DNA from: a virus | Direction: 5' to 3' (one strand) | IMG/VR virus record: IMGVR_UViG_3300029286_000037 | Location: 1 to 64,000 of that record | Length of the DNA stretch: 64,000 nucleotides | Part shown: piece after piece, positions 8,613-63,999 of the stretch | Layout: each line of letters starts with the position of its first letter | Position numbering within the stretch: the stretch's first letter is position 1 | The notes under the pieces: model-generated | Seen by the model: the letters and a program-made list of their open reading frames with translations, nothing else | Database searches by the model: none | What the model was told of the DNA's origin: nothing | Translations under genes and position numbers: made by a program

Positions 8613-8630
8613 AATAATTACTCCTTATAG

Positions 8631-9437
8631 TTAATTAGAAAAAAGTTTACTGAGTTCAGAAGCTTCATCAGCACCGAGCTCAAACTCATCCATAGAAGCC
8701 GAAAGCTCAATACCCTCTATGATTGAAGAAACGGGCTCTCTCTGTTGATCCTCTTTCTTTTCTTCATCTTTTGAACTTTCTTCAGCAGCATCTTTAGACT
8801 TCTCAGCTTTTTCTAAGGTCTTAATAGCTTTTGCTTTATCCTTCTTAATCTTGTCTGCTTTGATGTCAGCGATACTGGCATCCTTCTCGACTTTACCATG
8901 AGACTTCTCAACGATACCAGAATCCAAAGAGGTAGAAACATCTGGTACTTGCTCAGGTTTCAGAGTTGAAGCTTTTTCAGGAATGCCTTTATGTTTACCA
9001 TTAGGAACCTGGTTTGACTCAAGTTTCTTTCCTGTATCACAGCATACAGATTTTGTCATCCCGACTACATCACGAAGAAGATTGTCGACTACAGCTTTAG
9101 AAGCATCTTTACTCCAAAACATTCCTGCTGTTTTTTCAGAAGCTTCTACTGCCATTGGTATCCCCTCTTCTTTTTTAATTAATACTATTTTAGGCTCTGC
9201 ACCAGGAAGCCCCTCAGGACCCCCGACTGGGATAACCCCAGAGTCCATAGGCCCCTTACCACACATACAGGCCTCTGCTTCTTCTGTGAAATCAGAAGAT
9301 ATAACTCCTGTAAACTTGTCGTCAGACATCTTATTTAAGACATAGGACATAGCCTTAAGATCCCGATTATACGGTGTGTGACTGGCAAAGACTTCTGAGA
9401 GACCTTCCAATCTTTTTGCTAATGCTATACGATCCAT
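8631..9437 (-). CDS. Acidic/charged virion-associated protein
   Basis: A 268-residue protein between sheath and tube. The N-terminus (LAKRLEGLSEVFASHTPYN) is an amphipathic helix of a type repeated in several unrelated virion proteins here. The middle has a CMCGKGP segment, and the rest (about 170-235) is low-complexity Lys/Asp/Glu/Ala and probably disordered. A good ribosome site (AAGGAG) precedes the ATG. Function is not recognised; an assembly or internal head/tail protein is possible. Confidence 0.6.
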   Translation of the reverse strand: MDRIALAKRLEGLSEVFASHTPYNRDLKAMSYVLNKMSDDKFTGVISSDFTEEAEACMCGKGPMDSGVIPVGGPEGLPGAEPKIVLIKKEEGIPMAVEASEKTAGMFWSKDASKAVVDNLLRDVVGMTKSVCCDTGKKLESNQVPNGKHKGIPEKASTLKPEQVPDVSTSLDSGIVEKSHGKVEKDASIADIKADKIKKDKAKAIKTLEKAEKSKDAAEESSKDEEKKEDQQREPVSSIIEGIELSASMDEFELGADEASELSKLFSN

Positions 9438-9481
9438 ATCTAAATCTCCTTATGATAGTTTGTTTCTATTACAGTTTATGG

Positions 9482-12418
9482 TTAAAGACTCTGTCTCAAA
9501 TTCAAGGTCACCACAATCCAGTTCAATGGAAAAACAGGACTATAGTAAGCTTCTACATCAAGAGTACTAGGATCTTGATCATTCTGCTTTACAGTGATCC
9601 CTGTAAAATTCACAATGAGCTCTTTCTGTTTTAGCGATTTGAAATAAGATCCCAAAGCATCTTTAACCTGTGATTGAATCTTAGGAAGATTCTTCACACC
9701 GATGAATCGATCAAGAACTCTTCGCACACCCTGCTGAACAAAGTGCTTAACCTCAACGATTCTAGGATCGCGTGTCAAAGCGGTAGAGGTGTCCGAAGTA
9801 AGATAAAAAAGGATCTTTATAAATGGTGATTGCTCCTCGAGAACAGTACACCCGGCATTAGCAACAAGAGCTGCGCTGACGCTATCCAATCTCCGATATA
9901 GTCTCTTAAATCCTACGATCGTAGAATTGGTAAGAGGAGTAGCAATATCTGAAACAGGAGAAACATCCCGACCAGCCACTGCTGCAGCGATAATAGAACC
10001 GTCGACAACATACTCTACTTCATTTCCGTATGCATCAACTATCCCAACGATAGCACCGTCTGGGTATATAGGAGTAAGCTTCTCGGTCTTGAGGTTCTGA
10101 ACCATCTGAATCACTTGATCAGAGGTTGTCCCTATTGCAAAACCAATGATACTTGTTCTCTCACTCTTATAACGAATACTTGACTGTATTGCGTTTGAAG
10201 ACTTAAGATAGCTGATAACCTCTGGATTCGTGGTTAGGGACTGCATTAAAGCAGGTCTCAATCCATTAGGAAGAGGTACATTAAATGCATCGATACCTTC
10301 TATGTAATCTTGAACAGAGGCATCAGTTCCACCGACAGTACGTTTAACCTGCTTCAGAGCCACAGCCTGAGTCCCGTTTAAGAAAGCCAAGTTTGCAGCC
10401 AAAGTAAGTTTGTTGTTGATGTCAAGAGGTCCAAAGTACCGAACTACATCTCTCATGTTCGTTAAGAACTTAGCGGTATAGTCTGTCTTCTCTTTGTCAA
10501 AAGTAACATAGTACAGATCCCCGTTTGCTGGTTCAACACCGCTCTTATTGAATGTGTCAATAATGACAGTATCATCAGTAGTGTCTACTGAACCACCGCT
10601 TGTAGTGGAAACTGTGAGGTTAACACCTGGGATAACTCTTACTATGCTTGACGAAACAGTGATATAAAGCTGCTGAGTAGAATCTGATACGGTAGGATCA
10701 CCTATATCATATCTTACGATCGAACCTACACCAGGATTAAAAGCACCAGAATCATTTGAAAAGGTAACTCTGAAACCAGAAGTTGGGTCAATATAAGTTT
10801 TTCCTACATATCCAATATTCTTATTGTTGGCAGTTACAGACCCTGTTCTGCCCGGAAGAGTAAAGCCAGTACCATGAAAAGAGGTAACAGTGAAAGAACC
10901 ATCACCATGAAAAGTACAAGCAACTCTTTCTACAGAACCCTTAAGCGGATTGACTTGGAAGTTTGGAGAACCTGCCCCAGCATAAATAGGGGTAACAGTT
11001 CCACTGATGTATCTGACTTCCATGGCATTACCGCTGACTCTTGATGATATAGTGTACTTACCTACACTCGCACCACCGGGAACCTTATTAGTAAGAGTCC
11101 ACTTGTCATCAACAAGGTTATTCTCACGATACGTAACATAAACAATTTCTTGAAGAGCCTGTGATGGAGCTGCGGCAAGCGTAACTTGATTACCTTGAAT
11201 CTTGGTTACAGGCACTGCACCGGCAGTATAAGCTGCTGCCCAGTTTGCCCCGACGTAGGCTAAAATATCAGAAGGATCTTCTGTAGAAACTCCAAGTCCC
11301 GAACCATCAACCGGAGTTGAAGGCAGAGAAAAGACTTTATTGCTATTTAGGTTGACTTGTTCCCCATTAGCATTAGTTTGAATAACTCCACCAATAGTAA
11401 GGGGGTTTACTGGAGAACCTACCCGACCATAAACAAAAGTATCTGTTAATGATTCAGACACGTTATCAACAAGAGCCACAGCCCCTGCAGTATACAAACC
11501 CTGTGCAATATGGGAAGACTGTCCCCAATGGATCTGATTAGAACCTGCAAGAACGCAATCTTCACCGATGGAATAGTCATTTGTATCTTGACTCAAACCA
11601 GCTTTAACCAGTGCGTCCACAACAGCAGCAGGAAGGATGTCAAAAGTATCCTGCCAAAGATTCGTGAAGTATGTAACAGTCAGCGTAGAACCTATAGCCG
11701 GTGCAGTTGCAAGTGTGAATACTGCATCAGAACCGTTAAGGTGCGTTACTGCAACCTCTGCCCCATTTACCTTAACCTGAAAGACTCTCACTTGACGTTC
11801 GTACTCATCGCCAAGAACGAGTGGATCCGGATTATAAAGAATAGTGGTTACACCATTAATGTCTGTATCAACAGCTGATCTTCCGCCATTGTCCCCCTTA
11901 ACTATTCTTGAGTTGTGAACTTTAAAGTTGATTGAGGTCCCATCTACCTGAGTAGAAATAACTTCCTCTTCAACATAAGTATCACGACGTTTAAAATAGT
12001 AGTTAGCTCTTACTTCATCACCAACTTGTGGCAGCTGAACTAAGGTAACTTCCCCTGTTAAACCGTTTAAAGAGTTGACAGCAACATTCTGCCCATTAAC
12101 TGTAACGATAACACTACTTGGTGAAGTAGCTACTTTACCGCTTCCATCACCTGTTACAACAGGTTTATTTTGAATTACGAAAGAATTCTCCATACCTGTT
12201 GAAAACTGGCTGCTAACATCTTCGTCAAGAATAAGGTTATCAGAAATCGCTGATGACCCTCTTACCATTTCAAAGTTGCCAACTCTAACCGTTTCCGCAG
12301 ATACGCCAACAAAGGCTGGTATACGAATATCACCGGATGCTGTAACTCCAGCAGCCTCAGTGTTAGTCTTAACATATACACCAGGAAATACGAAACTTTC
12401 TAAAGGTCCCATAGCCAT
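9482..12418 (-). CDS. Tail sheath protein (unusually large)
   Basis: The C-terminal 280 residues contain the sheath-type core: DPRIVEVKHFVQQGVRRVLD, then a KNLPKIQSQVKDAL helix, and an ending in which a VEAYYSPVFPLNWI strand leads to LRQSL. The N-terminus (SFVFPGVYVKT) also matches sheath proteins. At 978 residues it is much longer than the roughly 400-700 usual. The extra length is beta-rich insertions carrying at least two copies of a module of the form VNG-x-V...LNG...FTL..AP..GS.LTVTY that also occurs in the neighbouring 476-residue tail protein. It forms the contractile sheath. The promoter motif lies 98 bases upstream. Confidence 0.92.
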   Translation of the reverse strand: MAMGPLESFVFPGVYVKTNTEAAGVTASGDIRIPAFVGVSAETVRVGNFEMVRGSSAISDNLILDEDVSSQFSTGMENSFVIQNKPVVTGDGSGKVATSPSSVIVTVNGQNVAVNSLNGLTGEVTLVQLPQVGDEVRANYYFKRRDTYVEEEVISTQVDGTSINFKVHNSRIVKGDNGGRSAVDTDINGVTTILYNPDPLVLGDEYERQVRVFQVKVNGAEVAVTHLNGSDAVFTLATAPAIGSTLTVTYFTNLWQDTFDILPAAVVDALVKAGLSQDTNDYSIGEDCVLAGSNQIHWGQSSHIAQGLYTAGAVALVDNVSESLTDTFVYGRVGSPVNPLTIGGVIQTNANGEQVNLNSNKVFSLPSTPVDGSGLGVSTEDPSDILAYVGANWAAAYTAGAVPVTKIQGNQVTLAAAPSQALQEIVYVTYRENNLVDDKWTLTNKVPGGASVGKYTISSRVSGNAMEVRYISGTVTPIYAGAGSPNFQVNPLKGSVERVACTFHGDGSFTVTSFHGTGFTLPGRTGSVTANNKNIGYVGKTYIDPTSGFRVTFSNDSGAFNPGVGSIVRYDIGDPTVSDSTQQLYITVSSSIVRVIPGVNLTVSTTSGGSVDTTDDTVIIDTFNKSGVEPANGDLYYVTFDKEKTDYTAKFLTNMRDVVRYFGPLDINNKLTLAANLAFLNGTQAVALKQVKRTVGGTDASVQDYIEGIDAFNVPLPNGLRPALMQSLTTNPEVISYLKSSNAIQSSIRYKSERTSIIGFAIGTTSDQVIQMVQNLKTEKLTPIYPDGAIVGIVDAYGNEVEYVVDGSIIAAAVAGRDVSPVSDIATPLTNSTIVGFKRLYRRLDSVSAALVANAGCTVLEEQSPFIKILFYLTSDTSTALTRDPRIVEVKHFVQQGVRRVLDRFIGVKNLPKIQSQVKDALGSYFKSLKQKELIVNFTGITVKQNDQDPSTLDVEAYYSPVFPLNWIVVTLNLRQSL

Positions 12419-14630: not shown

Positions 14631-14638
14631 AAAAAATA

Positions 14639-14668
14639 GGGGCTGGGAGAGACATTTCTCCCAGCCCC
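14639..14668 (-). terminator. Strong intrinsic terminator after actin-like gene
   Basis: A perfect 12-base GC-rich stem (GGGGCTGGGAGA and complement) with a six-base loop, followed on the minus strand by TATTTTTTAATAA. It ends the unit carrying the actin-like ATPase and lies just before the next promoter motif. Confidence 0.88.
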
Positions 14669-14676
14669 CTGCAGAA

Positions 14677-25228: not shown

Positions 25229-25255
25229 AAGGCTGATCTATTAAAAATCAGCCTT
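25229..25255 (-). terminator. Intrinsic terminator after the acidic 156-residue gene
   Basis: A nine-base stem AAGGCTGAT/ATCAGCCTT with a nine-base loop. The minus-strand tail is TTTTTATTTG. Confidence 0.78.
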
Positions 25256-26306: not shown

Positions 26307-26335
26307 GTCGCCGGGACCGTTATAGTCCCGGCGAC
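26307..26335 (-). terminator. Strong intrinsic terminator after the 141-residue gene
   Basis: A perfect 11-base GC-rich stem (GTCGCCGGGAC and complement) with a seven-base loop, followed on the minus strand by T-rich TTTAATTTTAAATT. It isolates the gene at 26364-26789 as its own unit. Confidence 0.88.
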
Positions 26336-26953: not shown

Positions 26954-27130
26954 ATGGATAGAGTAAATTTTCACCTTACTGAGGGTGAGATACACGGATT
27001 GAAGGTCATATCTGACTTGACTGGGGTACCACGTGCCGAAATAATAAGACGCGCGGTCGACGATTATATCAATCGAAAAAAGTTTGAAGGTTTTACAGGA
27101 CTTGAGAATATCAAAGAGGTGTACGCATGA
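26954..27130 (+). CDS. Ribbon-helix-helix (RHH) regulator
   Basis: A 58-residue protein with an RHH layout: an N-terminal beta strand (MDRVNFHLTEGE), helix 1 (IHGLKVISDLTG) and a turn plus helix 2 (VPRAEIIRRAVDDYINR). A GGGGAGA site precedes the ATG by three bases. Its TGA overlaps the next ATG (ATGA), so it is translationally coupled to the glycosyltransferase and probably controls this island. It resembles the minus-strand RHH protein at 49016-49201, which also adjoins a plus-strand cassette. Confidence 0.75.
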   Translation: MDRVNFHLTEGEIHGLKVISDLTGVPRAEIIRRAVDDYINRKKFEGFTGLENIKEVYA

Positions 27131-30100
27131 AAACCTCAAACTACTTGCTTGGTTTAAATATTATTTGCGGTCCTGATGATAAAGATGTTTTGGACAGGTG
27201 TTTAAAAAGTTGTCAGGGAGGCTTATTTGATGAGATTGTAGTAACCCTTGCTATGGGTAATGAAGACCCAGAGATAAAGGCTTTAGCTGAGAGTTACGGG
27301 GCTAAAACATTTTTCTTCAAGTGGATCTCTGATTTCGGTGCTGCCAGAAACTTTTCTTTTAGTAAGAACACTTCCAAATACATTATGTGGCTGGATTCTG
27401 ATGATATCATAAAACCTTCGGAATATAAAAAGCTCTTGGACCTTAAACCAAAGATTAATACCTGGGACATTGTCGTTCTTAACTACGTTTATAGTCATGA
27501 TGAAAATGATGCCCCCGTATTAACACTTCCCAGAGAACGTATCGTAAAGAACTGTGCGCATATAAAGTGGCATGACCCTATCCACGAGTACATGAATCTT
27601 GATGTCCCACAGAATAAATTGCACCGTGAGAATATAAACATTGACCACTACAGAATCAGGATGCACAACCCCGCCCGTAATATTGAGGCACTTAAAAAAG
27701 TCTATGATGCAGGCGGATGCTCTGAAAGAATTAAATTCTATTACGGTAAAGAGTTGTCTGATTTCGGTATGTGGGAAAAAGCAATCGAGGTACTTGAGCC
27801 TTATATAAAAAAGGGTGCTGACTTTGCAGATAACCTTACAACAGCTTGCATCCGTTTATCCAAGTACTATTTTGATAAATCGGATTTCACTTCCGCAAAG
27901 ACGTACGCTTTAGAAGGTATCCGTTTTAATAGCATCTATGCTGAAAACTATGTCGTACTAGGGAACATCTTTGAATATGAAAAAGATTTTGACACTGCTG
28001 CTGCTTATTATTTGGAAGCGCTTAATAAGACGCTAGATGGTGGTATGTCTCAGATAGTTGACTATTACGGTTTCATTCCTGCAGCTAAATTAGCCCTACT
28101 GTACTATACGAAAAAAGAGTATGACAAGGGTATAAAGTTTTGCAACTTAGCTCTCAAACATAAGCCAGGTAACGAACAGATGGTTGCATTACAGAAGGTG
28201 ATAGACAACGAGGTAGCGAGACTATCAAAAGGAGCTCTGCTGCAGACACCGGATATCGAAAATTTGAAAGATTTTTTATCAAAATGTTCTTTCACTATGG
28301 ATATAAAAAATAATAATCTTGAATTCTGCGACATTCGTTTAAAGAAGATCGTGAATTTAAAGGTATCCTGGTTTATCCCCACATTAAATCTCAATGACCC
28401 CGGTGTCAGGATAAGAAGAAGTAATATCTGCTGTGAAATGCAAAAGATGGGGATAGAAAGTTCTATCATAACTAATTACTATGGAATAAATCCCTATGAA
28501 ATTAGAAACATGGTGGGAGACTCTTCTGTAGCAATCTTTACACAAATGAGTAAAGATGACTTAGAGATCATGAAGCACATTAATGCTTCAGGTATAAAAT
28601 GCGTCTTTGATCATTGTGAGGCTATTTTCAACTACCCCTTTCAGCGTGATTGTATGAATGAAGCAGATCTCATTACATGCTGTTCAACGAAGCTTATGGA
28701 GCTTACAAACGAACAGGGGTATACGCGTGCAGTAGTGCTTAAGGACGCTGTAGAAAAAACAGAAACCAATACCATTTACAGTGATAGGTATCCAAAACCC
28801 AAAGCTGTTTACATGGGCATGGGGGGCAACTCCTGGCTGGTTAATGATTGGTTAAAGGACACAATTGAGGAAGCTGGCTACGAATTAGTCACCATAACAG
28901 AATGGGACAATGCGACTAAACGTTGGAACCCAGAAACATGGGCAGAAGACATGCTAGAGTGTGACGTAGTACTCTGTCCTCAAAGAGTTGATGTCCAACC
29001 GGCAAAGAGCTCTGTAAAAGCAACTACTGCTATGGCACTCGGCTTACCTGTATTATGCTCCCCTCTTCAAGCCTATAAAGAGGTTGTAGTCTCTGGTGAG
29101 AACGGGTTTATCTGCGAGACAAAAGAAGAGTGGAAAGAAGCACTTATTAAATTGAAGGATAGCAATTTAAGAAGAATAATAGGTGAAGCTGGTAGAAAGT
29201 CAGTGGGGGAATACAGCTTAAGAGCTATTACAACACAGTGGCAGGAGAATCTTACTAAGCTAATTAATAATCAATTTGCTTTCCCAGAGCCTCCTGAGGT
29301 AGTTGATACAAAAGTTAGATCATTAGTTGATATTATTATCGCCAGCTATAATAACGTTGACTACTTGAAAATGTGTGTATCATCCATCCTTATGAATACC
29401 CTACACCCATTTCATATTATCATCTCAGATGGTGGGAGCGATAAAGAGACTTGGGAATATCTGTCAGCATTGAAGGGGATTACCGTTGTAGGCGACCCGG
29501 GGAAAAGGATGTCTTTTTCTGAAACATGTAATGCCGGTATACTTGCTTCGAACACTAAGTATTTTGTGATCCTGAATTCTGACGTCATAGTTTCAAAATG
29601 CTGGCTTACTAGCCTGGTACACAAAATGGAAACTGTAGATCGTTTAGCTTCTTGCGGTGTGCTTAGTAATTGTGATAGAGGCTGGCTGCATGATGCCCCG
29701 AATAAGCCTTCATACCCTATGCTCCTGGAGAAATCTAAGATAGATCTTCACCCCGCTATGAAGATCAACGAGATTAAACCACATGTAGAAGAACTTTATA
29801 AGTTTATGGAGGACTCTAATAAACAGCATAAGGGTGTCTTTGTGAAACAAGAATGGGTCGCAGCTTATGCCACTATCTTTGCACGTTGTGCCATAAATGA
29901 GGTAGGCCTTTTTGACCCCCTTTATAAGAATGGGTGTGAGGATCTTGACCTTATAGCACGGTTATCAAAGTTTGGGTATGCGACAGGACAGGCTATTGAT
30001 TCTTTTATATTCCACTTCGGCGGGATAAGTCGCATGGCATACCAGGATGAGAATCGAGAGTCCTATAACGAAGAAGACCGTGCAAACCATTTAAAGTACA

Positions 30101-31248
30101 AAAATAAGTGGGAAAAGCGTAGGGTAGTCATCTGGACAGGCCCCGCATGGGAGCCGTGGAATAAAGCCAAGGTAGATGAAGGTATGGCAGGTTCTGAGAC
30201 CTGGGCGTCATATCTAGCACGGGAGTTTGTCAAAAAAGGTTTTCAGACAACGATCTACAATGACCTACTTATTGAAGATAAAAATGGGACCCTCCTTGAC
30301 CCCGTTATGAATGAAGTAGGGGAAAAAATCGGGGATGTCATTTATCGAGACCATAAAAATCTTCAGTCTGATGTAGAATATGGAATAGTCGACTATTTCA
30401 TATCTTCCCGTTCTGTCGATCCTTTGAAAATGAATATCCATTCTTTGAGAAACTTTGTAATGATCCACGATGTCTGGTTATCACATGATAAGAAATTTGA
30501 CATTATGACCTGGCGAGTAGATAAGTACGCCTATTTGTCTGAGTGGCACAAAGAGTTCTTAATGCAGCATCACGGTCTTATAAGCGATAAGATGTTCCTC
30601 ACTGCAAATGGTCAGGATTTCGAACTTTATGCTGATGTAGATCGCTATGAAAAAAAGAATCAAGCAGTATACTCCTCAAGCCCAGATAGAGGGCTGTATC
30701 AACTTTTAAAGATGATGCCTTTGATTAGGAAAGAAGTACCAGACTTTGAACTAATCGTAGCATACGGGTTTTATAACTGGGAGACCATGGCACGTTCCCG
30801 TAATGATCTTGAAGGTCTAAGATTTATTGCGGAAATAAAAAGTCTTATGGAGCAGCCCGGGGTAAAATACGTTGGCAGAGTCAGCAAGAAAGAATTAGCT
30901 GAGTACGAAAAAGAATCTAAGGTATGGTTATACCCAACTTGGTTCTCTGAGACTTTCTGCATAACCGCCTGCGCAGCTGGGTTAGCTAAATGCGCTATTG
31001 TCGGTACTGACTTTGCTGGACTACAAACTACTGTAGGGTCTTCTGGTGTGCTTCTACCTCCTGATGGACTAAGTAGAAATGGTGAGTATCCTCAGCAGTA
31101 TATTGACAGTTTTGTTAAAGAGGCTGTAACAATGCTTTCTGATAAACAGTACCGACTTGAGTGGTCTGAAAAAGCATATAACAAAATGAAGATGTACAGT
31201 TGGGATAATATAGCTAGAGGTTGGATGAAGGAATTTGGTATAAAGTAA
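27127..31248 (+). CDS. Giant multi-domain glycosyltransferase (GT2-TPR-GTB-GT2-GT4)
   Basis: A 1373-residue protein. Residues 1-110 are a GT2 (WaaE-like) domain with WLDSDDII near 88. About 190-370 are TPR-like helical repeats. About 412-715 form a GT-B-like domain (CPQRVDVQPAKSSVKATTAM, GENGFICETKEEW). About 734-985 are a second GT2 (IIIASYNNVDYLKMCVSSIL, then VILNSDV and GCEDLDL). About 998-1373 are a GT4 (VVIWTGPAWEP, KVWLYPTWFSETFCITACAA). Such fusions make or transfer surface glycans. It might modify host envelope, phage fibres or DNA. No signal peptide, so cytoplasmic. It sits in a plus-strand island next to minus-strand fibre genes and ends at a strong hairpin. Confidence 0.88.
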   Translation: MKTSNYLLGLNIICGPDDKDVLDRCLKSCQGGLFDEIVVTLAMGNEDPEIKALAESYGAKTFFFKWISDFGAARNFSFSKNTSKYIMWLDSDDIIKPSEYKKLLDLKPKINTWDIVVLNYVYSHDENDAPVLTLPRERIVKNCAHIKWHDPIHEYMNLDVPQNKLHRENINIDHYRIRMHNPARNIEALKKVYDAGGCSERIKFYYGKELSDFGMWEKAIEVLEPYIKKGADFADNLTTACIRLSKYYFDKSDFTSAKTYALEGIRFNSIYAENYVVLGNIFEYEKDFDTAAAYYLEALNKTLDGGMSQIVDYYGFIPAAKLALLYYTKKEYDKGIKFCNLALKHKPGNEQMVALQKVIDNEVARLSKGALLQTPDIENLKDFLSKCSFTMDIKNNNLEFCDIRLKKIVNLKVSWFIPTLNLNDPGVRIRRSNICCEMQKMGIESSIITNYYGINPYEIRNMVGDSSVAIFTQMSKDDLEIMKHINASGIKCVFDHCEAIFNYPFQRDCMNEADLITCCSTKLMELTNEQGYTRAVVLKDAVEKTETNTIYSDRYPKPKAVYMGMGGNSWLVNDWLKDTIEEAGYELVTITEWDNATKRWNPETWAEDMLECDVVLCPQRVDVQPAKSSVKATTAMALGLPVLCSPLQAYKEVVVSGENGFICETKEEWKEALIKLKDSNLRRIIGEAGRKSVGEYSLRAITTQWQENLTKLINNQFAFPEPPEVVDTKVRSLVDIIIASYNNVDYLKMCVSSILMNTLHPFHIIISDGGSDKETWEYLSALKGITVVGDPGKRMSFSETCNAGILASNTKYFVILNSDVIVSKCWLTSLVHKMETVDRLASCGVLSNCDRGWLHDAPNKPSYPMLLEKSKIDLHPAMKINEIKPHVEELYKFMEDSNKQHKGVFVKQEWVAAYATIFARCAINEVGLFDPLYKNGCEDLDLIARLSKFGYATGQAIDSFIFHFGGISRMAYQDENRESYNEEDRANHLKYKNKWEKRRVVIWTGPAWEPWNKAKVDEGMAGSETWASYLAREFVKKGFQTTIYNDLLIEDKNGTLLDPVMNEVGEKIGDVIYRDHKNLQSDVEYGIVDYFISSRSVDPLKMNIHSLRNFVMIHDVWLSHDKKFDIMTWRVDKYAYLSEWHKEFLMQHHGLISDKMFLTANGQDFELYADVDRYEKKNQAVYSSSPDRGLYQLLKMMPLIRKEVPDFELIVAYGFYNWETMARSRNDLEGLRFIAEIKSLMEQPGVKYVGRVSKKELAEYEKESKVWLYPTWFSETFCITACAAGLAKCAIVGTDFAGLQTTVGSSGVLLPPDGLSRNGEYPQQYIDSFVKEAVTMLSDKQYRLEWSEKAYNKMKMYSWDNIARGWMKEFGIK

Positions 31249-39049: not shown

Positions 39050-39159
39050 AAAAATATTTCCTATTATTTCTATTAGTACTTTAAGTTATTTCCCAATAGC
39101 CCAGAAACCATCTACAAAAATTATAGACTCTAAATATCTTATGGTAAAACTAGGTTTAA

Positions 39160-39178
39160 AAAAGTATATTAATATTAG
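39160..39178 (+). promoter_or_regulatory. Plus-strand promoter-like box before the exported protein gene
   Basis: AAAAGTATATTAAT (39160-39173), followed by ATTAG. The 14-base box is shared with 49502-49515, upstream of the other plus-strand exported protein gene. It lies 26 bases before the ATG at 39200. The TATATT part could serve as a -10 element. Confidence 0.5.
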
Positions 39179-41327: not shown

Positions 41328-41419
41328 CTTGAACCTCCTTTAAAGTGACACCCAATCCCTATCAAGTTTTTAGGGCGGGTAGATATCGTTGAAATCTTAT
41401 CTCGATATTCTATAACAAA

Positions 41420-41441
41420 CACTCCCCTTATCGGGGAAGTG
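41420..41441 (-). terminator. Weak terminator/attenuator before decoration gene
   Basis: CACT-CCCC / GGGG-A-AGTG, a bulged eight-base stem with a short loop, followed on minus by TTTGTTATAGAATA. No long T-run, so termination may be partial. Confidence 0.4.
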
Positions 41442-41456
41442 CGCTATACGTATTAA

Positions 41457-49476: not shown

Positions 49477-49515
49477 TTGTTTGTTGTAAAACTCGTTCTA
49501 TAAAAGTATATTAAT
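49477..49515 (+). promoter_or_regulatory. Plus-strand promoter before the LamG gene
   Basis: TTGTTT (49477-49482), 16-base spacer, TATAAA (49499-49504), overlapping the AAAAGTATATTAAT box (49502-49515) also found before the exported protein at 39200. Confidence 0.5.
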
Positions 49516-54776: not shown

Positions 54777-56645
54777 CTAAAAAGATCTCATTCCGCGATT
54801 ACCCATCCCAGAATATCGTGCTGATGGGCGGTTCAGTGTCGCCTTATTAAACTCTGACTTTCGTAACATACGAGCCATCCGTATATGTCCGATTGCAGCT
54901 GTATTTATTATGTTATGTGTAAACGATTTATCCCGATACTCATGTGCTAGATAGATCATACGAGCTAAGCTATCACTCAAATCGTCATGTTCACCCTCTC
55001 TTTGGGGGGCTTCAACCCTGATTATATATTTAGATTTTTGTTGTGCTTGTAAAGTCAGCAATTCAGCTACAAGTTCAGAGTCTGTTGACCGGATACCTTT
55101 AACATAAGTCTCGTTACCTTCCGGGAGTCTTAATGTTGAGGATAACAAACAACTAAGGAGCATCTGGTACACTGTTGAGTTGAGACTGTCATTGAAATGT
55201 CTCGCCTCAAACTGTTTAAAACCCATCTTATGCAGTTTGGGTTCCATAGTCATATCATAATACTGATCAAGCAGACCCTTTGCTATATAAAATTTACTTG
55301 TGAATGAAGCAATCCATTCCACCATCTCATCGGGCTCAAAATAGTTTTTACCTTCATCAGAGGCGTAGCGGACACCATGGTAGTCTACTTCAAGTTTATC
55401 TAACTTTACCCCATCTACCACATCTTGGACCCAGTGTCCAATAGTAATAGCGGTACCATCCTTCTTTAAACCTAAGTCAATGCCCATAAAATGTGGCACT
55501 CTATAAGTGCTACGTTCTTTTATTCTAAGGCCTGGTATAACATTTTTACGGACGATATCAGGATCATCTATCCATCCGAATAATTGATCACTGAACTGTG
55601 CCCCATACTCAGACTTAAAGGATATTGAATTCGCCTTATAAGTATTTTTAAGGAATTGAGTAGACATTTCCGGATCGATCTCCCATGTAGGAGCCTGCAT
55701 CATAAACAGATCCTCATTATCATCCTCAAAAGCACGTTCATACTCACTATAAAACTTACCAGATTTTGGACCTGGAGAAGAAAGGCATATAATTTTACCG
55801 TCTGGTGTTCCATCAGGTTTCTTAAACTTTGCCACAGAAGGGGTTGCTGCTTTATAAATCGCCCCATCATTTCTATCTTTTGTACTAACTACATTAGTCG
55901 TCTTTTCATCTGCAAAAAAGAATGCCATCTCATCAAGTGCTACAACAATGTTACCAGGACCTCGAAGGCCCTTTGCACTACAAGGAGCTACACGTATCGT
56001 TATAGAGGCTAAACCCTTCGGACCGTATTTATCCAAATCACGCTGAGTGCGTAAATTAACATACTGCTGTGTGGGTTTACTTCTAAACTTCCTGAAAAAC
56101 TCCGACCGCTCGATATGTCCTACTATTTTTGTAAAGAGCTCTGAGGCAGTCTCCTTACTGGTAGATATACAAGTGACTTTGATAGGGTCTTCTGGCATAA
56201 TCTGATAGTATTCTTGCGGACAATACTTATTTAATAATTTGTAAACCTCATATGTTATTATACAAGATGTTATGGTACTTTTTCCGGCTCTTCTACCGCA
56301 AACCAAAACCATATTAGGACAAAGTTTTCCTGGTTCGTAGATTCTACCAAGACGCCCCTCATTAAACAGATACATCATGTATTCTTGTTCATTAAAGCGG
56401 TAAAGCTCTTTTTCATTGAACTGGTCGTTTATTATGATATCCCTTTTTGAAGAGTTATCTAATTCAAGACCATAGTACCCCTTAATGATGAAGCGCTGCG
56501 CCGGGTACAGCCCCGGAACATCAGAACTACACCCCATAGCAAGACCCCATGGAGCAGTAACGAACTCCATAATATCTTTATCTAAATAGTCCTTATTATC
56601 TATCTTTGATGTGATAACCTTGGAACAAAGCTCGGATAAACTCAT
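54777..56645 (-). CDS. terL: Terminase large subunit
   Basis: A 622-residue ATPase-nuclease. Walker A is CGRRAGKST (about 114-122), Walker B is VALDEMAFFF (about 235-244), and a C-terminal RNase H-like nuclease has acidic residues in MGIDLGLKKDG (about 385), KGLLDQYYDMT and EGEHDDLSDSLARM (about 548). It powers DNA packaging into the prohead through the portal and cuts concatemers. Gene order is unknown 252-residue gene, terminase, fibre. The gene starts two bases after the upstream stop. Confidence 0.93.
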   Translation of the reverse strand: MSLSELCSKVITSKIDNKDYLDKDIMEFVTAPWGLAMGCSSDVPGLYPAQRFIIKGYYGLELDNSSKRDIIINDQFNEKELYRFNEQEYMMYLFNEGRLGRIYEPGKLCPNMVLVCGRRAGKSTITSCIITYEVYKLLNKYCPQEYYQIMPEDPIKVTCISTSKETASELFTKIVGHIERSEFFRKFRSKPTQQYVNLRTQRDLDKYGPKGLASITIRVAPCSAKGLRGPGNIVVALDEMAFFFADEKTTNVVSTKDRNDGAIYKAATPSVAKFKKPDGTPDGKIICLSSPGPKSGKFYSEYERAFEDDNEDLFMMQAPTWEIDPEMSTQFLKNTYKANSISFKSEYGAQFSDQLFGWIDDPDIVRKNVIPGLRIKERSTYRVPHFMGIDLGLKKDGTAITIGHWVQDVVDGVKLDKLEVDYHGVRYASDEGKNYFEPDEMVEWIASFTSKFYIAKGLLDQYYDMTMEPKLHKMGFKQFEARHFNDSLNSTVYQMLLSCLLSSTLRLPEGNETYVKGIRSTDSELVAELLTLQAQQKSKYIIRVEAPQREGEHDDLSDSLARMIYLAHEYRDKSFTHNIINTAAIGHIRMARMLRKSEFNKATLNRPSARYSGMGNRGMRSF

Positions 56646-56647
56646 TA

Positions 56648-57406
56648 CTAGTCTTTCCCGTAATAAATACGTTCAGCATTTTTTTCAAAGTTATCAAAAG
56701 ATTTGGCTAATTCAGTAAAGAAGATGTCTTCATATTGAACTGGAATATTTACTTTACCAAATGTCTTTTGGATAGTCTCGAGAAAGTATTTAAGCACCTT
56801 CTGGAAAGCTTCCCCATGAAAGTCAACTTTACCTGAGACATTGTCCTTCTTTAATCTTTCCTGTTCTATTATGGTTTCAACAAGATGTTTGAGTATCTTA
56901 ATTCTCTTTAAGCTTGAGTCTGATAGGTCTTCACCCGTTCCCCAATGCTCATTTCTAAAAGCCTTTATGTAGGCGGCTTCCTCAGCTATCTCTTCCATGA
57001 CAACTTTTAGGATAGTGCTGTTGGGCTTATTATCCCTAAGGACACCTAATAGCTTGTCATTTTCGGCGGGGTTAGCCATAGCCTTATTTAGAGGGCTACC
57101 GGGCATAAGATTTATGCCCATAACACCCGTAGAAACATTTCTCAAAACTGCAGAAGGAGTCGTTTCAGAGGGGGCGGTAAATACCTCCGTCTCTTCTTTT
57201 AAGATCTGCTTATTCAGCTCTCTCTCAGCTTCTTTTCGTACATCATCCATGAAACCGGTATCTACTTGAAGAATATCTTTAGGTGGGGGTGGAGCTGCTC
57301 CACGAGAAACAGTATCTTCATCCCCCAACAAAAAGTTCACGAGGTCATGTTCATGATCCACGAGGATTTCTTCTTCAAAAACATCAATAGGTTTTCTTTT
57401 TCCCAT
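56648..57406 (-). CDS. Unknown protein before terminase; small-terminase candidate
   Basis: A 252-residue protein: polar N-terminal half with Pro-rich GAAPPPPKDI, a helical middle and C-terminal half (EEIAEEAAYIKAFRNEHWGT, LKHLVETIIEQERL). It directly precedes the large terminase and is coupled to it. Position allows a small-terminase role but no HTH is evident, so this is a low-grade guess. Confidence 0.5.
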   Translation of the reverse strand: MGKRKPIDVFEEEILVDHEHDLVNFLLGDEDTVSRGAAPPPPKDILQVDTGFMDDVRKEAERELNKQILKEETEVFTAPSETTPSAVLRNVSTGVMGINLMPGSPLNKAMANPAENDKLLGVLRDNKPNSTILKVVMEEIAEEAAYIKAFRNEHWGTGEDLSDSSLKRIKILKHLVETIIEQERLKKDNVSGKVDFHGEAFQKVLKYFLETIQKTFGKVNIPVQYEDIFFTELAKSFDNFEKNAERIYYGKD

Positions 57407-57457: not shown

Positions 57458-59362
57458 TTAAAACAAATGGCTATCAATACCCTCACTGCCCATTTCAACA
57501 TCCATATCCCCTGAAGCTTTTTCCTGCATGTTATCCAGGGCTATATTCATACCAGAACCAAAAGGATCCGACATGTCATACTTCTGATTAAGGTCTTCTC
57601 GTTCCTCATCAGGATTATCCTTTAATAGGACTTTCTTTGTGACATCCTCTATAACATTCTCAGTTCCAGTAGCACACTTGATATCGAAGAAAGCCTTGTC
57701 GAGAGCCATTCCACCAAAAAAGTCAGTAGATTGTTTAATGCAACTTGAAGCACCCTTAAGGACACATTCAGTGCATTTCTCTGTAGGCTTAATTGAGGCA
57801 GTTCTACTGAGATCATATCTCTCAGAAGTACATTTCGATAAGCAATCAGCACTTACAGTAGGCATACTTGATAAGACCTTACGGATCATACCAACAGCTT
57901 CAGTAGTACCCATCATTGAAGCGACTCTATCTTCAATAAGATCGATCCCTACACCGGCTTCAATAGCTTTTACTACACCCTGCTTAATAACAACCTGGTC
58001 CATGGCTTTTTTAGTTACCACAGGAGCATAAGTCCCCTGCACACCACCAGTACGGACTTCTTTCTTATACTGTAAGGAGGCATCAAAGGCTTCCTTTATA
58101 ATGTTCAAGCTGCTGTCCCCGGCGATAACTTTATTCAAAAGACCCTGAGAAGTGCTGGAAGCGATTCTATTACCCGACTGAAGATCCTTGATGTAGCTAA
58201 ATGCTACCTTCTTATCAAGTTTACCATCTCTTGGAAGCTCAGAGCATCCCGTAGCGCTTGCAACCTTTGCAAGAGTTGTATCAAACTCATGGGAGCGGTA
58301 CGACTGAACAACATAGAGCGGGTTGGTGCTGGCATTCTTAATTGCACATATAGCGTCTTCAGGAGTTTTATAATAGGAGACATCTACATAGATATTCCCA
58401 AGTATCCCTTGAAGTCCGGCTACTTTTGCGATCTCTTCAGCATACTTAGAGATGTCTGTTGAGGAAAACTTCTGACGAATGCTCTCTTTAAGAGCTTCCC
58501 CGGCTTTTCCCTTTAGTAATTGATCCTGCATGTATGCAAGAATGGGTCGTGCAGAAAAGAATCTATGTAAAGAGGCTTGTTTCTTCTGCTCTGAAGCATT
58601 TTTTTCCAGTTGAGCTGAAAAATCTTGTTGCATTTTTACAGGGTCAGCTGCAGCGGCATACTTGACTTCAGCAGGTTCCTGTTGCTCGGGTTGTTTTAAG
58701 AAAGCTTCTCGAAGATTATCTTTAGAGGTAATCGTATCAGAAGCATTTATCACCCCAGCGATACGGAGATGGCTGGTATACTCACTAAGAATATGGTCTG
58801 AGTAGTCCATGGCTTCCAGGGATCTCTTATTGAGTTCTTTGCAAAAACCGTTATGATGTGAAGAGCATACTTTGCGAGAAGGATTACCAACAACGTACTT
58901 AGCAGTCCGGATCCTGTTTTTACCCAATATCACTGCAGCTTCATGACAGCTATCAAATGGTGTGAGATCTATGTAAACATTGCCTAGGAGACCCTGCTCT
59001 GCAGCGAGTTTTACAAGTTCTTCTTTTGCAGCATAGATGAGTTCTGGCATGTACAAACTTGACAGTCTGTCTGCAAGCTGTTTCCCTGTTGAACCAAGCA
59101 TCATTTCTTTCTTAGCCTGTTTCACTACACCAGCGATGTCTTCCTGAGAAGCTTTCTTAGCGTTTACGCCGCCCCTTATAGACGAGTTAGAGACAAGGCG
59201 GGTACTTTCCTGGTTAGTGTGCGTCCAAGCCTTTTGAAGCTGCGGGAGAGCTTCTACAGGGAACTCTGAAGGGATATTCTCCTTCGAAAGGACTAACCAA
59301 TCCAAATCAGGTACCTGGGCTAAGCTCTTATCGGGTTCTATTGAATTTCCAATCGCATCCAT
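57458..59362 (-). CDS. Virion protein with internal duplication
   Basis: A 634-residue protein with two similar segments (QGLLGNVYIDLTPFDSCHEA near 125, and QGILGNIYVDVSYYKTPEDA near 320) that look like a duplicated alpha/beta domain, plus Cys-rich segments (DCLSKCTSERYDL, KCTECVLKGASSC) near 530-550. I take the ATG at 59362, preceded by AAGGAG about ten bases away; the longer frame starting at 59395 overlaps the upstream gene and lacks such a site. It may be an internal virion or head-assembly protein. No family assigned. Confidence 0.62.
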   Translation of the reverse strand: MDAIGNSIEPDKSLAQVPDLDWLVLSKENIPSEFPVEALPQLQKAWTHTNQESTRLVSNSSIRGGVNAKKASQEDIAGVVKQAKKEMMLGSTGKQLADRLSSLYMPELIYAAKEELVKLAAEQGLLGNVYIDLTPFDSCHEAAVILGKNRIRTAKYVVGNPSRKVCSSHHNGFCKELNKRSLEAMDYSDHILSEYTSHLRIAGVINASDTITSKDNLREAFLKQPEQQEPAEVKYAAAADPVKMQQDFSAQLEKNASEQKKQASLHRFFSARPILAYMQDQLLKGKAGEALKESIRQKFSSTDISKYAEEIAKVAGLQGILGNIYVDVSYYKTPEDAICAIKNASTNPLYVVQSYRSHEFDTTLAKVASATGCSELPRDGKLDKKVAFSYIKDLQSGNRIASSTSQGLLNKVIAGDSSLNIIKEAFDASLQYKKEVRTGGVQGTYAPVVTKKAMDQVVIKQGVVKAIEAGVGIDLIEDRVASMMGTTEAVGMIRKVLSSMPTVSADCLSKCTSERYDLSRTASIKPTEKCTECVLKGASSCIKQSTDFFGGMALDKAFFDIKCATGTENVIEDVTKKVLLKDNPDEEREDLNQKYDMSDPFGSGMNIALDNMQEKASGDMDVEMGSEGIDSHLF

Positions 59363-59363
59363 G

Positions 59364-60011
59364 TTATTTATCTCCTTTTGATAGATTTGCCACAATTCTT
59401 TTACTAAGGACAGAAGCTACTTTATCCTTAACGTTCCCATTAATAAGGTCGCCATATCTCTTAAGGGCATCTACCTCAAAAGAGTTTACGACATCCTTAG
59501 GATCAATATCTTCCAAAGGAGGCTTAGCTTCTCCGGAAGGAAGTGCTGTATCAGCTCCGCCTTCTCCAGGTACTATCTCTTCGACTTCCTTTACTTCCTC
59601 TTCAACAATTTCATTCTCGTTCTTAACTTTCTTTTTCTCAACGTCACTCAAACCCCATTTGGGATTAGTGAGTTCATCAGCAAGGGTATCTGTGACATCT
59701 GATAAGTCTGTGATAGCACTGCTGATCTTTAGCTTCATATCCTTAAATGGCATAATAAAACCACGACCGCCCAGCATACCATCGGGGGTAATCTCAGAAC
59801 CCCGAAGAATTGACAAGTCCTTCATAGCTGAGATCATTGTACCTAATGAGACATTGATATTGTGAAGAGCCTTCTTAAGGACATTGGCCTTTGACGGGTC
59901 ATAATCAAAATTATCGATATGTCTTTTCAGTTCACCTTTATTACCAGTGTCCTTTTTACTCTCAGCAATCTTTGTTGCAGCTAATCGCGTGGTTAACCGG
60001 GTTCGTTCCAT
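59364..60011 (-). CDS. Head-associated protein with RLTTR N-terminus
   Basis: A 215-residue protein with a helical N-terminal half (KALHNINVSLGTMISAMKDL), a Glu/Val-rich acidic linker (about 130-160) and a helical end. The start MERTRLTTRLAATKI shares RLTTRxAA with the scaffold-like protein at 41457-42401, possibly a targeting or cleavage tag. Function unknown. Confidence 0.58.
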   Translation of the reverse strand: MERTRLTTRLAATKIAESKKDTGNKGELKRHIDNFDYDPSKANVLKKALHNINVSLGTMISAMKDLSILRGSEITPDGMLGGRGFIMPFKDMKLKISSAITDLSDVTDTLADELTNPKWGLSDVEKKKVKNENEIVEEEVKEVEEIVPGEGGADTALPSGEAKPPLEDIDPKDVVNSFEVDALKRYGDLINGNVKDKVASVLSKRIVANLSKGDK

Positions 60012-60016: not shown

Positions 60017-60682
60017 TTATCCTTTAATTGGTTCGCCAGAGTTATCAAAAAGTCTCTTTATCTGAACGTTTCCATCTTTATCAGAATCAATCGCCCATAA
60101 ATCATGAGTACACTTGTGGATCAATTGGTTACTTCCGATACGGTCAAAGGAGAAAAGATCATCAAGGCTTGCAACCTTCATTCTGTTCTCATCAAGAAAT
60201 GGATCGATACCATTCTCGGAAGCTACTGACACAATAGAAGCGGATTTTATTGTTTGTTGAAGATTTCTAAAAACACCATTAACAATACTGCTTTCATAAC
60301 CACCACCCGCAAGTTTTAAGCTCACTGCTTTTACAGCCAATTCATATTTATCTGACATAGAAGCACTCCTGTTATCTATATTAAAACCCGGACATCTTTT
60401 ATCATAAGTTTTAGGGAAATCTGCACACTGCGCCGGTTTAAAGTCCCACACAGAGCACTTGTTATCCTCAAGAAAGACGCACTCTTTAGTATCTGGCTTA
60501 TTTATCAATACAACTTTAGCTTTATCCTTAGTTGTATAGTCTTCTACAAATTTTTCATGAGATAGAGACTTATGATTACTCAAAGTGTCTATATCTTTTT
60601 GGGTTAAAACTACAACGCCTTCCCATTTACAGCACGCACCGCACTTAACACACTCAAAATCTTTTCCATCTATAGTTCTCAT
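60017..60682 (-). CDS. YkgJ-type Cys-cluster protein
   Basis: The N-terminal CVKCGACC (residues 11-18), then ECVFLEDNKCSVWDFKPAQC (about 67-86) and RCPGFN follow the YkgJ family Cys-cluster pattern, which probably binds zinc or an iron-sulfur cluster. The C-terminal 110 residues (to 221) are an extra helical and mixed region. Its role in a phage is not known. It sits in the head/terminase transcript. Confidence 0.75.
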   Translation of the reverse strand: MRTIDGKDFECVKCGACCKWEGVVVLTQKDIDTLSNHKSLSHEKFVEDYTTKDKAKVVLINKPDTKECVFLEDNKCSVWDFKPAQCADFPKTYDKRCPGFNIDNRSASMSDKYELAVKAVSLKLAGGGYESSIVNGVFRNLQQTIKSASIVSVASENGIDPFLDENRMKVASLDDLFSFDRIGSNQLIHKCTHDLWAIDSDKDGNVQIKRLFDNSGEPIKG

Positions 60683-60684: not shown

Positions 60685-61116
60685 TTAACTTCTAAATGGG
60701 TTGACGTTAAGCTCATCGGGATCAAAACCAATTGTATCTCTATTCTCATTTAATCCGTCAGGTGTGGTGCTATCATTCATAGGTTCCCCCTGAACATTTT
60801 CAAAGGGACTCCCAAAATTTGTCTCAGTTACGGGCTTGGTATCTTTATCATTCCAGTCAACGGGGTCAGGTCTCTCCCCTTGTCGACGGATATCCTCTTC
60901 GTTTTTGCATCTGTCTTTTTTATCGAGATCATTATATAAACTGGGGGTACCATCACCAATCTCACTGCTATCCTCTTCAGGCTCAGTCTGCTGCTGATAA
61001 TATGGGATATTCATGTAGGGGGAATCACCGGAGTAATTCTCATCAACCATCATGGCTAGTTTTTTTATACGATCGGAGAGGCTAACAAGCATACCATACC
61101 CACCCAAGGATAACAT
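60685..61116 (-). CDS. Disordered protein heading the terminase unit
   Basis: A 143-residue protein. After an amphipathic helix (LVSLSDRIKKLAMMVDENYS) it is polar, Asp/Glu/Pro/Asn-rich and probably disordered. Start is uncertain: the ATG at 61116 is in frame with another at 61092, and neither has a strong ribosome site. It follows the promoter motif by 34 bases and leads the terminase transcript. Function unknown. Confidence 0.55.
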   Translation of the reverse strand: MLSLGGYGMLVSLSDRIKKLAMMVDENYSGDSPYMNIPYYQQQTEPEEDSSEIGDGTPSLYNDLDKKDRCKNEEDIRRQGERPDPVDWNDKDTKPVTETNFGSPFENVQGEPMNDSTTPDGLNENRDTIGFDPDELNVNPFRS

Positions 61117-61171: not shown

Positions 61172-61798
61172 TTAGCAGATCTTACTTATTCTTACTTTGT
61201 ATCCGCGATCAAAGTGGGGAAGGACTACTTCATGCATCATGTACAAATTATCCCGGACGTATATAAGTAACTTCGAGCAAACAGCTAGGTCACCATTTCC
61301 TCTTTTATGCTTTTTTAGGCGTTCAATAAAACGTTCAAACTTATGCCGTATTTTAACCTGAGTCATCTTACCACCGTCTTTAAGGCGGTATTTAGCATTG
61401 AGCAACTCTGCAGTCTTTGACTGACACGTAGTTTCAATCATGGTAGTAATCAGGCTTATCTCAAATTCGCTAAAGTGGGGCTTTAGCACCACTTCAATAG
61501 CTTCATTGAGCTTTGGCATGTCTCTAAGAAATCGAAGTCTCTTACCAGCACGGGACAGCCTGTGGGAGATCGCCCCTTGAGTGACAGAAAATATCTCAGC
61601 GATCTCTTTCTGCTTTTTATCCATATAGTAATAGAGATTGATAAGATCACGTTCTTTACTGGGCAATCTATCCAGAAAAGGGATAAAATCATCGTATGAT
61701 AGGTTATTCTCTTCCTGATCATAAAAGAAGTTTTTCTCATCCGAGAATCTATTCTCAAGCTCTGTCGGATCCATGCTTTTATACATAATCTTATTCAT
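61172..61798 (-). CDS. Sigma-70 region-4-like transcription factor
   Basis: A 208-residue protein from the ATG at 61798, which has AGGAGG five bases upstream; the frame also allows an earlier ATG at 61822 overlapping the nuclease gene. Residues about 40-90 (LPSKERDLINLYYYMDKKQK, EIAEIFSVTQGAISHRLSRA) are a sigma-70 region-4 HTH. A second helical HTH-like region follows at about 120-160 (SKTAELLNAKYRLKDGGKMT). No region 2 was seen, so it is not a full sigma factor and may work as a co-activator or in a split sigma. It lies directly before the promoter-marked structural transcript. Confidence 0.75.
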   Translation of the reverse strand: MNKIMYKSMDPTELENRFSDEKNFFYDQEENNLSYDDFIPFLDRLPSKERDLINLYYYMDKKQKEIAEIFSVTQGAISHRLSRAGKRLRFLRDMPKLNEAIEVVLKPHFSEFEISLITTMIETTCQSKTAELLNAKYRLKDGGKMTQVKIRHKFERFIERLKKHKRGNGDLAVCSKLLIYVRDNLYMMHEVVLPHFDRGYKVRISKIC

Positions 61799-61814
61799 AA
61801 GGCCTCCTATATAT

Positions 61815-62744
61815 TTAGTCAAAAAGGGAAAATGACTCTACCTTAACCGCAGCTCTTGGGTCAGAATACCGAATATTTAGAGATGAGGAGAAAATATCAA
61901 TGATATTGTCTGGATTGATCGATCTTATTTCGTACTTACCGAATAATTCTGAAATGTTCTTTTTATCAAAAGAGCTACTATCACAAACTATCGAATCGAG
62001 ACTTCTATTAAGTTCTGTGATTTTAAAGTTGGTCGCCACCCTCTCCTTACCCTCTATCATAGAGCCTAATTGGAATTCTGTGAGTTTAACTTCAAGGAGG
62101 TTGTCATACACACCCTTAACTGTTTCGAAGCTATTTACAAGATTTGCTAAAATTTTTCGGGGAACACGACTTACACCCGTAATATTATCACCGGGATCTC
62201 CATCAAAACTTCTATAGCAAGCCAATTTCTCTGGAGGTACCCCAAACTGTTCCTTTACCGCTTGTTCATCATAAAATTTTTCAGGATTGAGACCAACCTT
62301 GGGCTTAAAAACAATAATTTTACCGTTCTTAACTAATTGTAGTAAATCCTTATCATTGGAATACAGCATGACAGTCCCATCTTCTGCACTGTACTTCACT
62401 GCTAAGGAAGCTAGAACATCATCAGCCTCTTGCCCTTCCATAAAATACTGGTCTACACCAGCATTCCTAAGGAAAGCCTGAATATCGGGTATCTGGCCCA
62501 TCACAGTCTCTGAAAGGCTTGTCCTACCTGCTTTATAGTCTGATTGTAAGGCTTTCTTGAACTCAGGCTTCCTATCCCATACTACCTCTATTTTGTATCC
62601 ACGGTACTTCTTTTTAAGAGCAAAGATAGTTCTTATAAACCCGTAAAACATTCCTGAGTAAAGGCCTGCGCCAGTCTTTAACTCAAAGTTTGCATTGTGG
62701 GCACGATGTACCAAGTTTAGAGCGTCTATAAGGAAGTAATTCAT
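61815..62744 (-). CDS. FEN-type 5'-3' exonuclease (RNase H-like)
   Basis: A 309-residue nuclease with FEN/PolA-N motifs: LIDALNLVHRAH (residues 5-16), WDRKPEFKKAL, QEADDVLASLA (about 103-113), YSNDKDLLQLV (about 128-138) and GDPGDNITGV (about 180-189), which supply the two-metal acidic residues and the HhH region. It would remove RNA primers and flaps in phage DNA replication, like T4 RNase H or T5 exonuclease. It is the only clear replication gene in the window, between NusG-like and sigma-like genes. Confidence 0.9.
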   Translation of the reverse strand: MNYFLIDALNLVHRAHNANFELKTGAGLYSGMFYGFIRTIFALKKKYRGYKIEVVWDRKPEFKKALQSDYKAGRTSLSETVMGQIPDIQAFLRNAGVDQYFMEGQEADDVLASLAVKYSAEDGTVMLYSNDKDLLQLVKNGKIIVFKPKVGLNPEKFYDEQAVKEQFGVPPEKLACYRSFDGDPGDNITGVSRVPRKILANLVNSFETVKGVYDNLLEVKLTEFQLGSMIEGKERVATNFKITELNRSLDSIVCDSSSFDKKNISELFGKYEIRSINPDNIIDIFSSSLNIRYSDPRAAVKVESFSLFD

Positions 62745-62753: not shown

Positions 62754-63413
62754 CTATTTTATAGTGAGGTTAATAAAACTTATGGGGGCTTCGATTATCC
62801 TGGTAGAATACTGAAATCTAACTATGGCTATTAGATTTTTTCTATCTACGGATAATACTTCACCTTCAAGGTTACTGAAGGTGCCAATTTTAGGTATAAC
62901 TATTTGTTTCTTCTTGGGAATTCGTTCTCTGAGCTTTAGCTTTAATTCCTGCTTAAGTTCATTGATCTTCACACCAAGTATTTTTACAACTTCCCGTTTT
63001 TTCTTCATAGGACCCTTAATGTGTTCACTATGATAAGAATCAGGGTACCTGAGGATATGGTCTGTGGCTCGGACAAAAAAGTATCCCTCAAATAAAATTA
63101 GAGAGACCACTTTATCTTTGATCTGTTCCTTATAAAAGGGTACAAAATACTCCGTATCAGGCCCAAACATCACACCAATGCGATGCTCAATAGCCTCAGA
63201 GTGTTCATCAAAGGACACGTCTTCGACGAGTTCCATAATAACCCAGAAAGATTTCGGATCTACTTTTTTATTCGTATAACCCACAGAATTTTTTGATATT
63301 ATTAATTCTGTTGAAGGTTGTTCTTCTTTTACATTAGTACTTTTTTCTTTTTTCTGTTGAGAAACTTTCTTGGATTTTTTTAAACTAAATCCTGTCAGGC
63401 TCAATGTTACCAC
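62754..63413 (-). CDS. NusG-like (NGN+KOW) transcription factor
   Basis: A 219-residue protein. A polar N-terminus is followed by an NGN-like domain (about 56-140: SFWVIMELVEDVSF, EYFVPFYKEQIKDKVVSLIL, FEGYFFVRATDH, matching the ...P.YKE...PGYVFV pattern). A basic linker (KLRERIPKKKQIVI) leads to a KOW domain (about 176-219: IGTFSNLEGEVLSVDRKNLI, AIVRFQYSTRIIEAPISFIN). This is the NusG/RfaH architecture. It should travel with RNA polymerase and control pausing or termination. The overlap with the upstream gene indicates a translationally coupled operon. Confidence 0.78.
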   Translation of the reverse strand: MVTLSLTGFSLKKSKKVSQQKKEKSTNVKEEQPSTELIISKNSVGYTNKKVDPKSFWVIMELVEDVSFDEHSEAIEHRIGVMFGPDTEYFVPFYKEQIKDKVVSLILFEGYFFVRATDHILRYPDSYHSEHIKGPMKKKREVVKILGVKINELKQELKLKLRERIPKKKQIVIPKIGTFSNLEGEVLSVDRKNLIAIVRFQYSTRIIEAPISFINLTIK

Positions 63414-63999
63414 CGATTATCTGAGTAAATTGCTCTTTTGAAAGCTTACTCTTTTTAAGTTGATCAGGCACAACTGACGATGTATCCGGTCCCCAAACTT
63501 TAGAAACCGTCTCCGTCACTTTCTCATTTTTTTCAGACTGAAGCTTACGTAATTTTATACCACGCATCTTATCGTCTTTTTCCCATGGTTGGAGAGTTTT
63601 ATCATCTAAGATTTCTCTACCTTCATCCTGGTTTTTTGTGCTCTTTTTTACCTGATTAACTTCTTCCGGAACATCAAACGCCTTAAACTTAAAGCCCCCC
63701 TTCAAGAACTTATAGTGGAGTATTAACAGATCGGACTGAAACATTGTCACATCATTCAATCTATTTTTATTTAGAATATAATCGAGCATCTCAAATAGAA
63801 CATTCCCGAAACCATGCCTCAAGGATTGTACTATACTGTTATAATTGGCGCTTTCAAAAACAATCCCACTTAAGCTTTTTAATGAATCATTCAACAGTCT
63901 GAGAATTGATTCATAAATTTGTCTGACATCCATACTACTAATAAGTTTGTCTGCTATTTTTATTGCAGCGCTTAAGTCGGTGGGGAGGGCAAGTAACAT
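63385..63999 (-). CDS. Unknown protein, 5' end at window edge
   Basis: At least 204 residues, helical, with a basic Lys-rich second half (MRGIKLRKLQSEKNEKVTET). The visible ATG at 63999 is the edge of the window, so the true start may lie outside. It overlaps the NusG-like gene by 29 bases and thus probably belongs to the same operon. No family recognised. Confidence 0.5.
   Translation of the reverse strand: MLLALPTDLSAAIKIADKLISSMDVRQIYESILRLLNDSLKSLSGIVFESANYNSIVQSLRHGFGNVLFEMLDYILNKNRLNDVTMFQSDLLILHYKFLKGGFKFKAFDVPEEVNQVKKSTKNQDEGREILDDKTLQPWEKDDKMRGIKLRKLQSEKNEKVTETVSKVWGPDTSSVVPDQLKKSKLSKEQFTQIIGGNIEPDRI

Follow-up and report, generated by a model that had tools for sequence, protein, structure and literature searches.

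Does a huge phage carry a NusG-family gene of its own, and if so, what does it do with it? The question is raised by a 219-residue ORF near the end of a 64,000-nucleotide stretch of viral DNA, positions 1 to 64,000 of IMG/VR record IMGVR_UViG_3300029286_000037 (hereafter the window), which the original prediction read from sequence motifs as NGN plus KOW domains. Single-sequence searches with this protein found no match in Pfam, PHROGs or the PDB, tblastn against 50,697 phage records found none either, and a scan for close relatives and an exonuclease scan each returned nothing. With single-sequence searches blank, the motif reading had evidently caught what such searches miss.

Using the terminase of the window as bait we collected related viral contigs, and a terminase profile then yielded 80 loci of large phages; most of the records are fragments. 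A profile of 34 relatives of the window protein matches solved NusG structures in the PDB across NGN and KOW alike (E = 1.4e-13 for Thermotoga, 2.3e-7 for E. coli). Among these relatives, 23 of 34 match the Pfam NusG family and 24 of 34 match KOW at E <= 0.1, and 32 of 34 match phrog_6386, "transcription antiterminator", a profile to which the window protein shows no match of its own. The AF2 model of the window protein has a pLDDT of 84 overall, mostly above 90 across the NGN and KOW domains, with the KOW domain folded as a beta-barrel. Its best Foldseek matches are NusG, RfaH and Spt5, VIA places it with the same families, and its KOW domain superposes on the C-terminal domain of E. coli NusG (2jvv) with an rmsd of 1.3 Å over 56 residues (VIA). 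Whole-chain TM-scores are low (0.23–0.37), for which a hinge between the two domains is the probable cause; taken singly, the domains superpose closely. Structural alignments to bacterial NusG show 12–18% identity. The predicted architecture is thus borne out both by the 34-member profile and by the AF2 model, in which the NGN fold is present at mostly >90 pLDDT: the ORF encodes a real, divergent NusG-family protein with NGN and KOW domains.

The ORF lies on the minus strand, and its reading is as originally given. Its coding span (62757–63413) begins at a GTG at 63413 and ends before a stop codon at 62754–62756, and the start codon is uncertain, being either this GTG or a TTG three codons on. 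The start overlaps the end of dnaX, an overlap also present in L006, the locus that carries a syntenic homolog (35% identity over 206 aa, E = 2e-40), and the record of 64,866 bases contains a single NusG copy. The FEGYFFV core is residues 108–114, where the NGN strand motif ends. The sequence that was described as C-terminal, FSNLEGEVLSVD, is present, at residues 179–190 inside the KOW domain and not at the extreme C-terminus. The first approximately 50 residues contain 11 K/R against 4 D/E and have AF2 pLDDT values of about 43–63; in the model this lysine-rich extension falls outside the NGN domain, and the L006 homolog carries a similar one. The features of the locus are listed in Table 1.

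Table 1. The NusG-family gene, its parts and its neighbors, in window coordinates
Feature	Coordinates	Strand	Basis
Phage NusG-family gene (219 aa)	62754..63413, stop included	(-)	ORF listing, profile, AF2, Foldseek
Lysine-rich N-terminal extension, predicted disordered (residues 1-50)	63264..63413	(-)	Low pLDDT, K/R excess
NGN domain (residues about 55-163)	62925..63251	(-)	NusG profile match, AF2 pLDDT mostly >90, VIA match to RfaH NGN 8pen
KOW domain, beta-barrel (residues 166-219)	62757..62918	(-)	Profile, AF2, VIA to E. coli NusG CTD 2jvv
Clamp loader (DnaX-like), C-terminal part	63385..63999	(-)	Runs past window, overlaps NusG start
5'-3' exonuclease / flap endonuclease (FEN), 309 aa	61815..62744	(-)	PF02739 E 1.3e-35; record's only FEN
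SFSLFD tail of FEN, C-terminal, candidate sliding-clamp-binding motif	61818..61835	(-)	Conserved [FY]SLF end in window's clade
Sigma-region-4-like transcription factor	61172..61822	(-)	PF04545 E 6.6e-12; phrog_351 sigma factor E 3.9e-13
Small conserved gene of block	60685..61116	(-)	Homologs in L002, L006
CxxCxxCC metal-binding protein of block	60017..60682	(-)	PF03692 E 1.7e-10; synteny
Conserved gene of block	59364..60011	(-)	Synteny
Conserved gene of block	57458..59395	(-)	Synteny
Conserved gene just before terminase	56648..57406	(-)	Synteny
Terminase large subunit	54777..56645	(-)	Bait for collecting related phages

When an iterative profile was run over the ORFs of the 80 loci, most of those with sufficient upstream sequence yielded the NusG gene (E < 1e-40), and in dozens of huge-phage loci (E < 1e-40) it lies beside dnaX and the sigma-like gene. 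Of 42 related contigs searched as whole records, 38 carry it. NusG is therefore a core gene of this huge-phage lineage, and the expectation that phage NusG-like proteins are uncommon stands for phages generally, as the blank tblastn search indicates, and fails within the lineage. A distant copy is present in the cultivated Tunturiibacter jumbo phage Tunturi_5, whose gp25 matches the lineage profile, is annotated "transcription antiterminator" and is encoded directly after a clamp loader gene. A homolog in L042 (5642–6379) has an extra C-terminal region that is winged-helix-like in appearance.

The gene order around NusG recurs as well: clamp loader, NusG, FEN (where present), the sigma-region-4-like gene, the CxxC protein, three conserved genes and terminase. 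Wherever a locus extends that far, NusG almost always adjoins DnaX and the sigma-like gene. The clamp loader homolog in L006 (86–1438) matches PF13177 (E = 8e-30), and in the record that holds the window the clamp loader match continues to about position 64731; in the window the FEN gene starts 9 bases past the NusG stop codon. We made several side observations on genes of this block. The L006 terminase ORF (8363–11602, 1,079 aa) has a long intein-like insertion after about residue 122, with splice-like ends and conserved flanks, and the DnaX-like ORF of L011 (1886–3352, LR745208.1) has a long, intein-like N-terminal insertion. Tunturi_5 gp346 (L008, 21754–22485) is annotated "exonuclease", yet it matches the sigma-like profile of the lineage and, weakly, Pfam antitermination Q; the annotation may be wrong.

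Which polymerase might such a protein act upon? The 24 records searched yielded neither an RNAP beta nor a beta' subunit, while 14 of 14 controls were positive, so the host polymerase is probably the target. A search for a T7-type polymerase (PF00940) gave no match in the records but none in any control genome either and is uninformative. By alignment, key positions of the hydrophobic RNAP-binding patch are retained: W57, P92, F108 and Y111 correspond to W9, P45, F65 and Y68 of E. coli NusG. A serine occupies the KOW position aligned with E. coli NusG F165, a Rho/S10 contact in that species, so coupling to the ribosome or to Rho in the E. coli manner should not be assumed.

Considering the computed homology, NGN-plus-KOW fold, lineage conservation, gene order and the fusion described below, we put at roughly 70% the probability that the protein is a divergent NusG-family elongation or antitermination factor for the host RNAP, and in relatives physically linked to the action of a nuclease. 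The NGN domain would dock onto the clamp helices of the host enzyme's beta' subunit, and the phage NusG would keep that enzyme from pausing or terminating along long phage transcripts. It may also displace the host NusG and with it Rho-dependent silencing, a step suggested by the loss of F165 from the KOW domain. The same pairing of retained RNAP-contact residues with a lost Rho/S10 residue would suit a takeover decoy, a protein that mainly bars host NusG from RNAP and thereby stops Rho-dependent silencing of phage genes and shuts down host transcription; a pure blocker, however, would not need the KOW domain that is conserved here, and the gene is grouped with those for replication and packaging, not in an early takeover region, and we consider a decoy unlikely.

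The original prediction also named RfaH, a specific antiterminator that would suit long operons with internal terminators. This would mean an autoinhibited KOW domain and a recruitment confined to ops-like pause sites in particular phage operons. The NGN–KOW fold and the appearance of RfaH among the structural matches fit such a protein, but the lineage profile is nearer to NusG (33.7 bits for E. coli NusG, 15.6 bits for RfaH) and we dropped RfaH as the better label. The KOW domain is predicted as a beta-barrel rather than the autoinhibitory alpha-helical hairpin, with the qualification that AF2 may show one state of a fold-switcher. Strong terminator-like intercistronic hairpins do lie between co-directional minus-strand genes elsewhere in the window (14638–14669, 25229–25255, 26307–26335 and 41419–41442), in keeping with an RfaH-like role, whereas the NusG gene cluster has no strong ones, and terminator-like sites there are as frequent as chance predicts (7 vs 7.2). 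The picture of operons with internal terminators thus holds for a few places in the window and not for the cluster itself; those few hairpins are the one observation favoring operon-specific antitermination, which is possible. Nor did we find a recurrent ops-like element in the 64-kb window, where a direct ops search presupposes a known host. Taken together, the RfaH identity was not upheld, and an RfaH-like mode of action seems to us distinctly improbable.

The only notable repeat in the window is a promoter-like 27-mer, TAAAACTNGNTNTANAAAAGTATATTA, with two plus-strand copies (39145–39171 and 49487–49513), each just upstream of a plus-strand gene (at 39200 and 49542); the pattern was built from these same two copies, and shuffles gave none. 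Also on the plus strand, in a mostly minus-strand region, is a large gene (27127–31248) that encodes TPR repeats along with glycosyltransferase domains of families 1 and 2.

In ten contigs of sister phages, NusG and FEN form a single ORF of about 590–690 aa, with a predicted helical linker of ~150 residues between them. Pfam recognized 5'-nuclease domains in both of two fused proteins searched and NusG/KOW in one; an AF2 model of a fusion has confident end domains, including the FEN fold, and a poorly predicted linker, and Foldseek on that model recognized flap endonucleases and NusG. In the NusG tree the fused proteins make up one clade that includes one unfused member, L078, whose NusG ORF (838–1788) retains the extra C-terminal region corresponding to the linker of the fusions and is directly followed by FEN as a separate ORF. 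The simplest reading of a single fused clade with such a member is one fusion and one later split, L078 resembling a split fusion or a frameshift. Between two related fusions, dN/dS in the three parts is about 0.04, 0.10 and 0.05, ratios that are rough because dS is near saturation; all three parts are under strong purifying selection.

Every searched record that bears a FEN has exactly one, either fused to NusG or directly after it; in the window phage it is separate. A FEN match is missing in 11 of the 24 records searched, and in about half of the lineage NusG stands without a FEN beside it, so the link to FEN is inessential to the role of NusG. In the window's clade the FENs end in a conserved [FY]SLF. 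Of 2,649 ORFs, 16 carry this tail; all 16 are FENs, with some phages represented twice. By its sequence this tail resembles clamp-binding motifs; the family A polymerase lacks it at its end, and a clamp role for it stays an inference. The C-terminal "LLxxFF" of the fused proteins was also considered as a clamp motif and was dropped, since it sits in the last FEN helix.

Within the elongation-factor reading, NusG may work jointly with the single 5'-nuclease of the phage. In the window phage FEN would do so as the separate product of the adjacent gene, bearing a candidate clamp-binding tail of its own; in the sister clade it is tied covalently to NusG through the helical linker, so the nuclease would ride on RNA polymerase and might clear away R-loops or 5' flaps at sites where transcription meets replication. 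That NusG and the only FEN form one functional unit in this way, a nuclease on RNAP that clears such structures at encounters between the two processes, we offer tentatively, as a possibility well short of even. Similarly doubtful is a rival reading in which coupling is the main function, NusG linking RNAP to the phage replisome (clamp loader, clamp and FEN) with FEN resolving collisions or R-loops. The conserved company of clamp loader, FEN and sigma-like factor, the fusion, and the clamp-motif-like tail in the unfused clade all point that way, but neither neighborhood nor fusion proves contact, and both the records without a FEN match and the polymerase end without the tail speak against it.

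The NusG-family assignment is solid and ordinary in kind; the setting is unusual and informative. No other transcription factor family is, to our knowledge, universally conserved as NusG is, and a NusG that is core to a huge-phage lineage is a natural experiment in what the protein must keep and what it may lose. A study of H. pylori prophages mentions a NusG-like regulator (PMC11321410). The NusG/RfaH papers examined for mentions of phages or viruses do not discuss phage-encoded members. Literature on NusG together with a flap endonuclease in phages was not found in a search that reached few subscription papers. We found no earlier report of the NusG–FEN fusion, which would be, as far as we know, the first covalent link between an RNAP elongation factor and a flap nuclease. 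It is the part most worth experiment and opens phage transcription–replication conflict to direct tests with purified proteins.

How does this protein compare with known systems? Among those that tie host RNAP to a phage sigma factor and a clamp, the closest is the T4 late-transcription module, in which gp33, gp55 and gp45 bring together the host polymerase, a sigma-like factor and the replisome's sliding clamp (PMC2988020, PMC7892883). The resemblance would be one of role, with the clamp contact here inferred, and unlike the phage protein gp33 is not a NusG. PHROG 6386 shares its "transcription antiterminator" annotation with Tunturi_5 gp25 and is matched by nearly all relatives in the profile, whereas the fused NusG–FEN form is absent from the family description. 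With RfaH and other NusG paralogs (LoaP, UpxY) the protein shares the NGN fold and a mobile-element context that suits an antiterminator. In the comparison, which was run with RfaH, the lineage profile scored RfaH below NusG, and the phage protein has no predicted helical KOW domain and a gene that is core to its lineage and not operon-linked. With bacterial NusG (E. coli, Thermotoga, Aquifex) it shares the order of NGN and KOW, the aromatic W of strand 1, the VP and F-x-G-Y motifs and the beta-barrel KOW domain, and it differs from them in its lysine-rich N-terminal extension, the loss of F165 and the position of its gene beside a clamp loader and a FEN.
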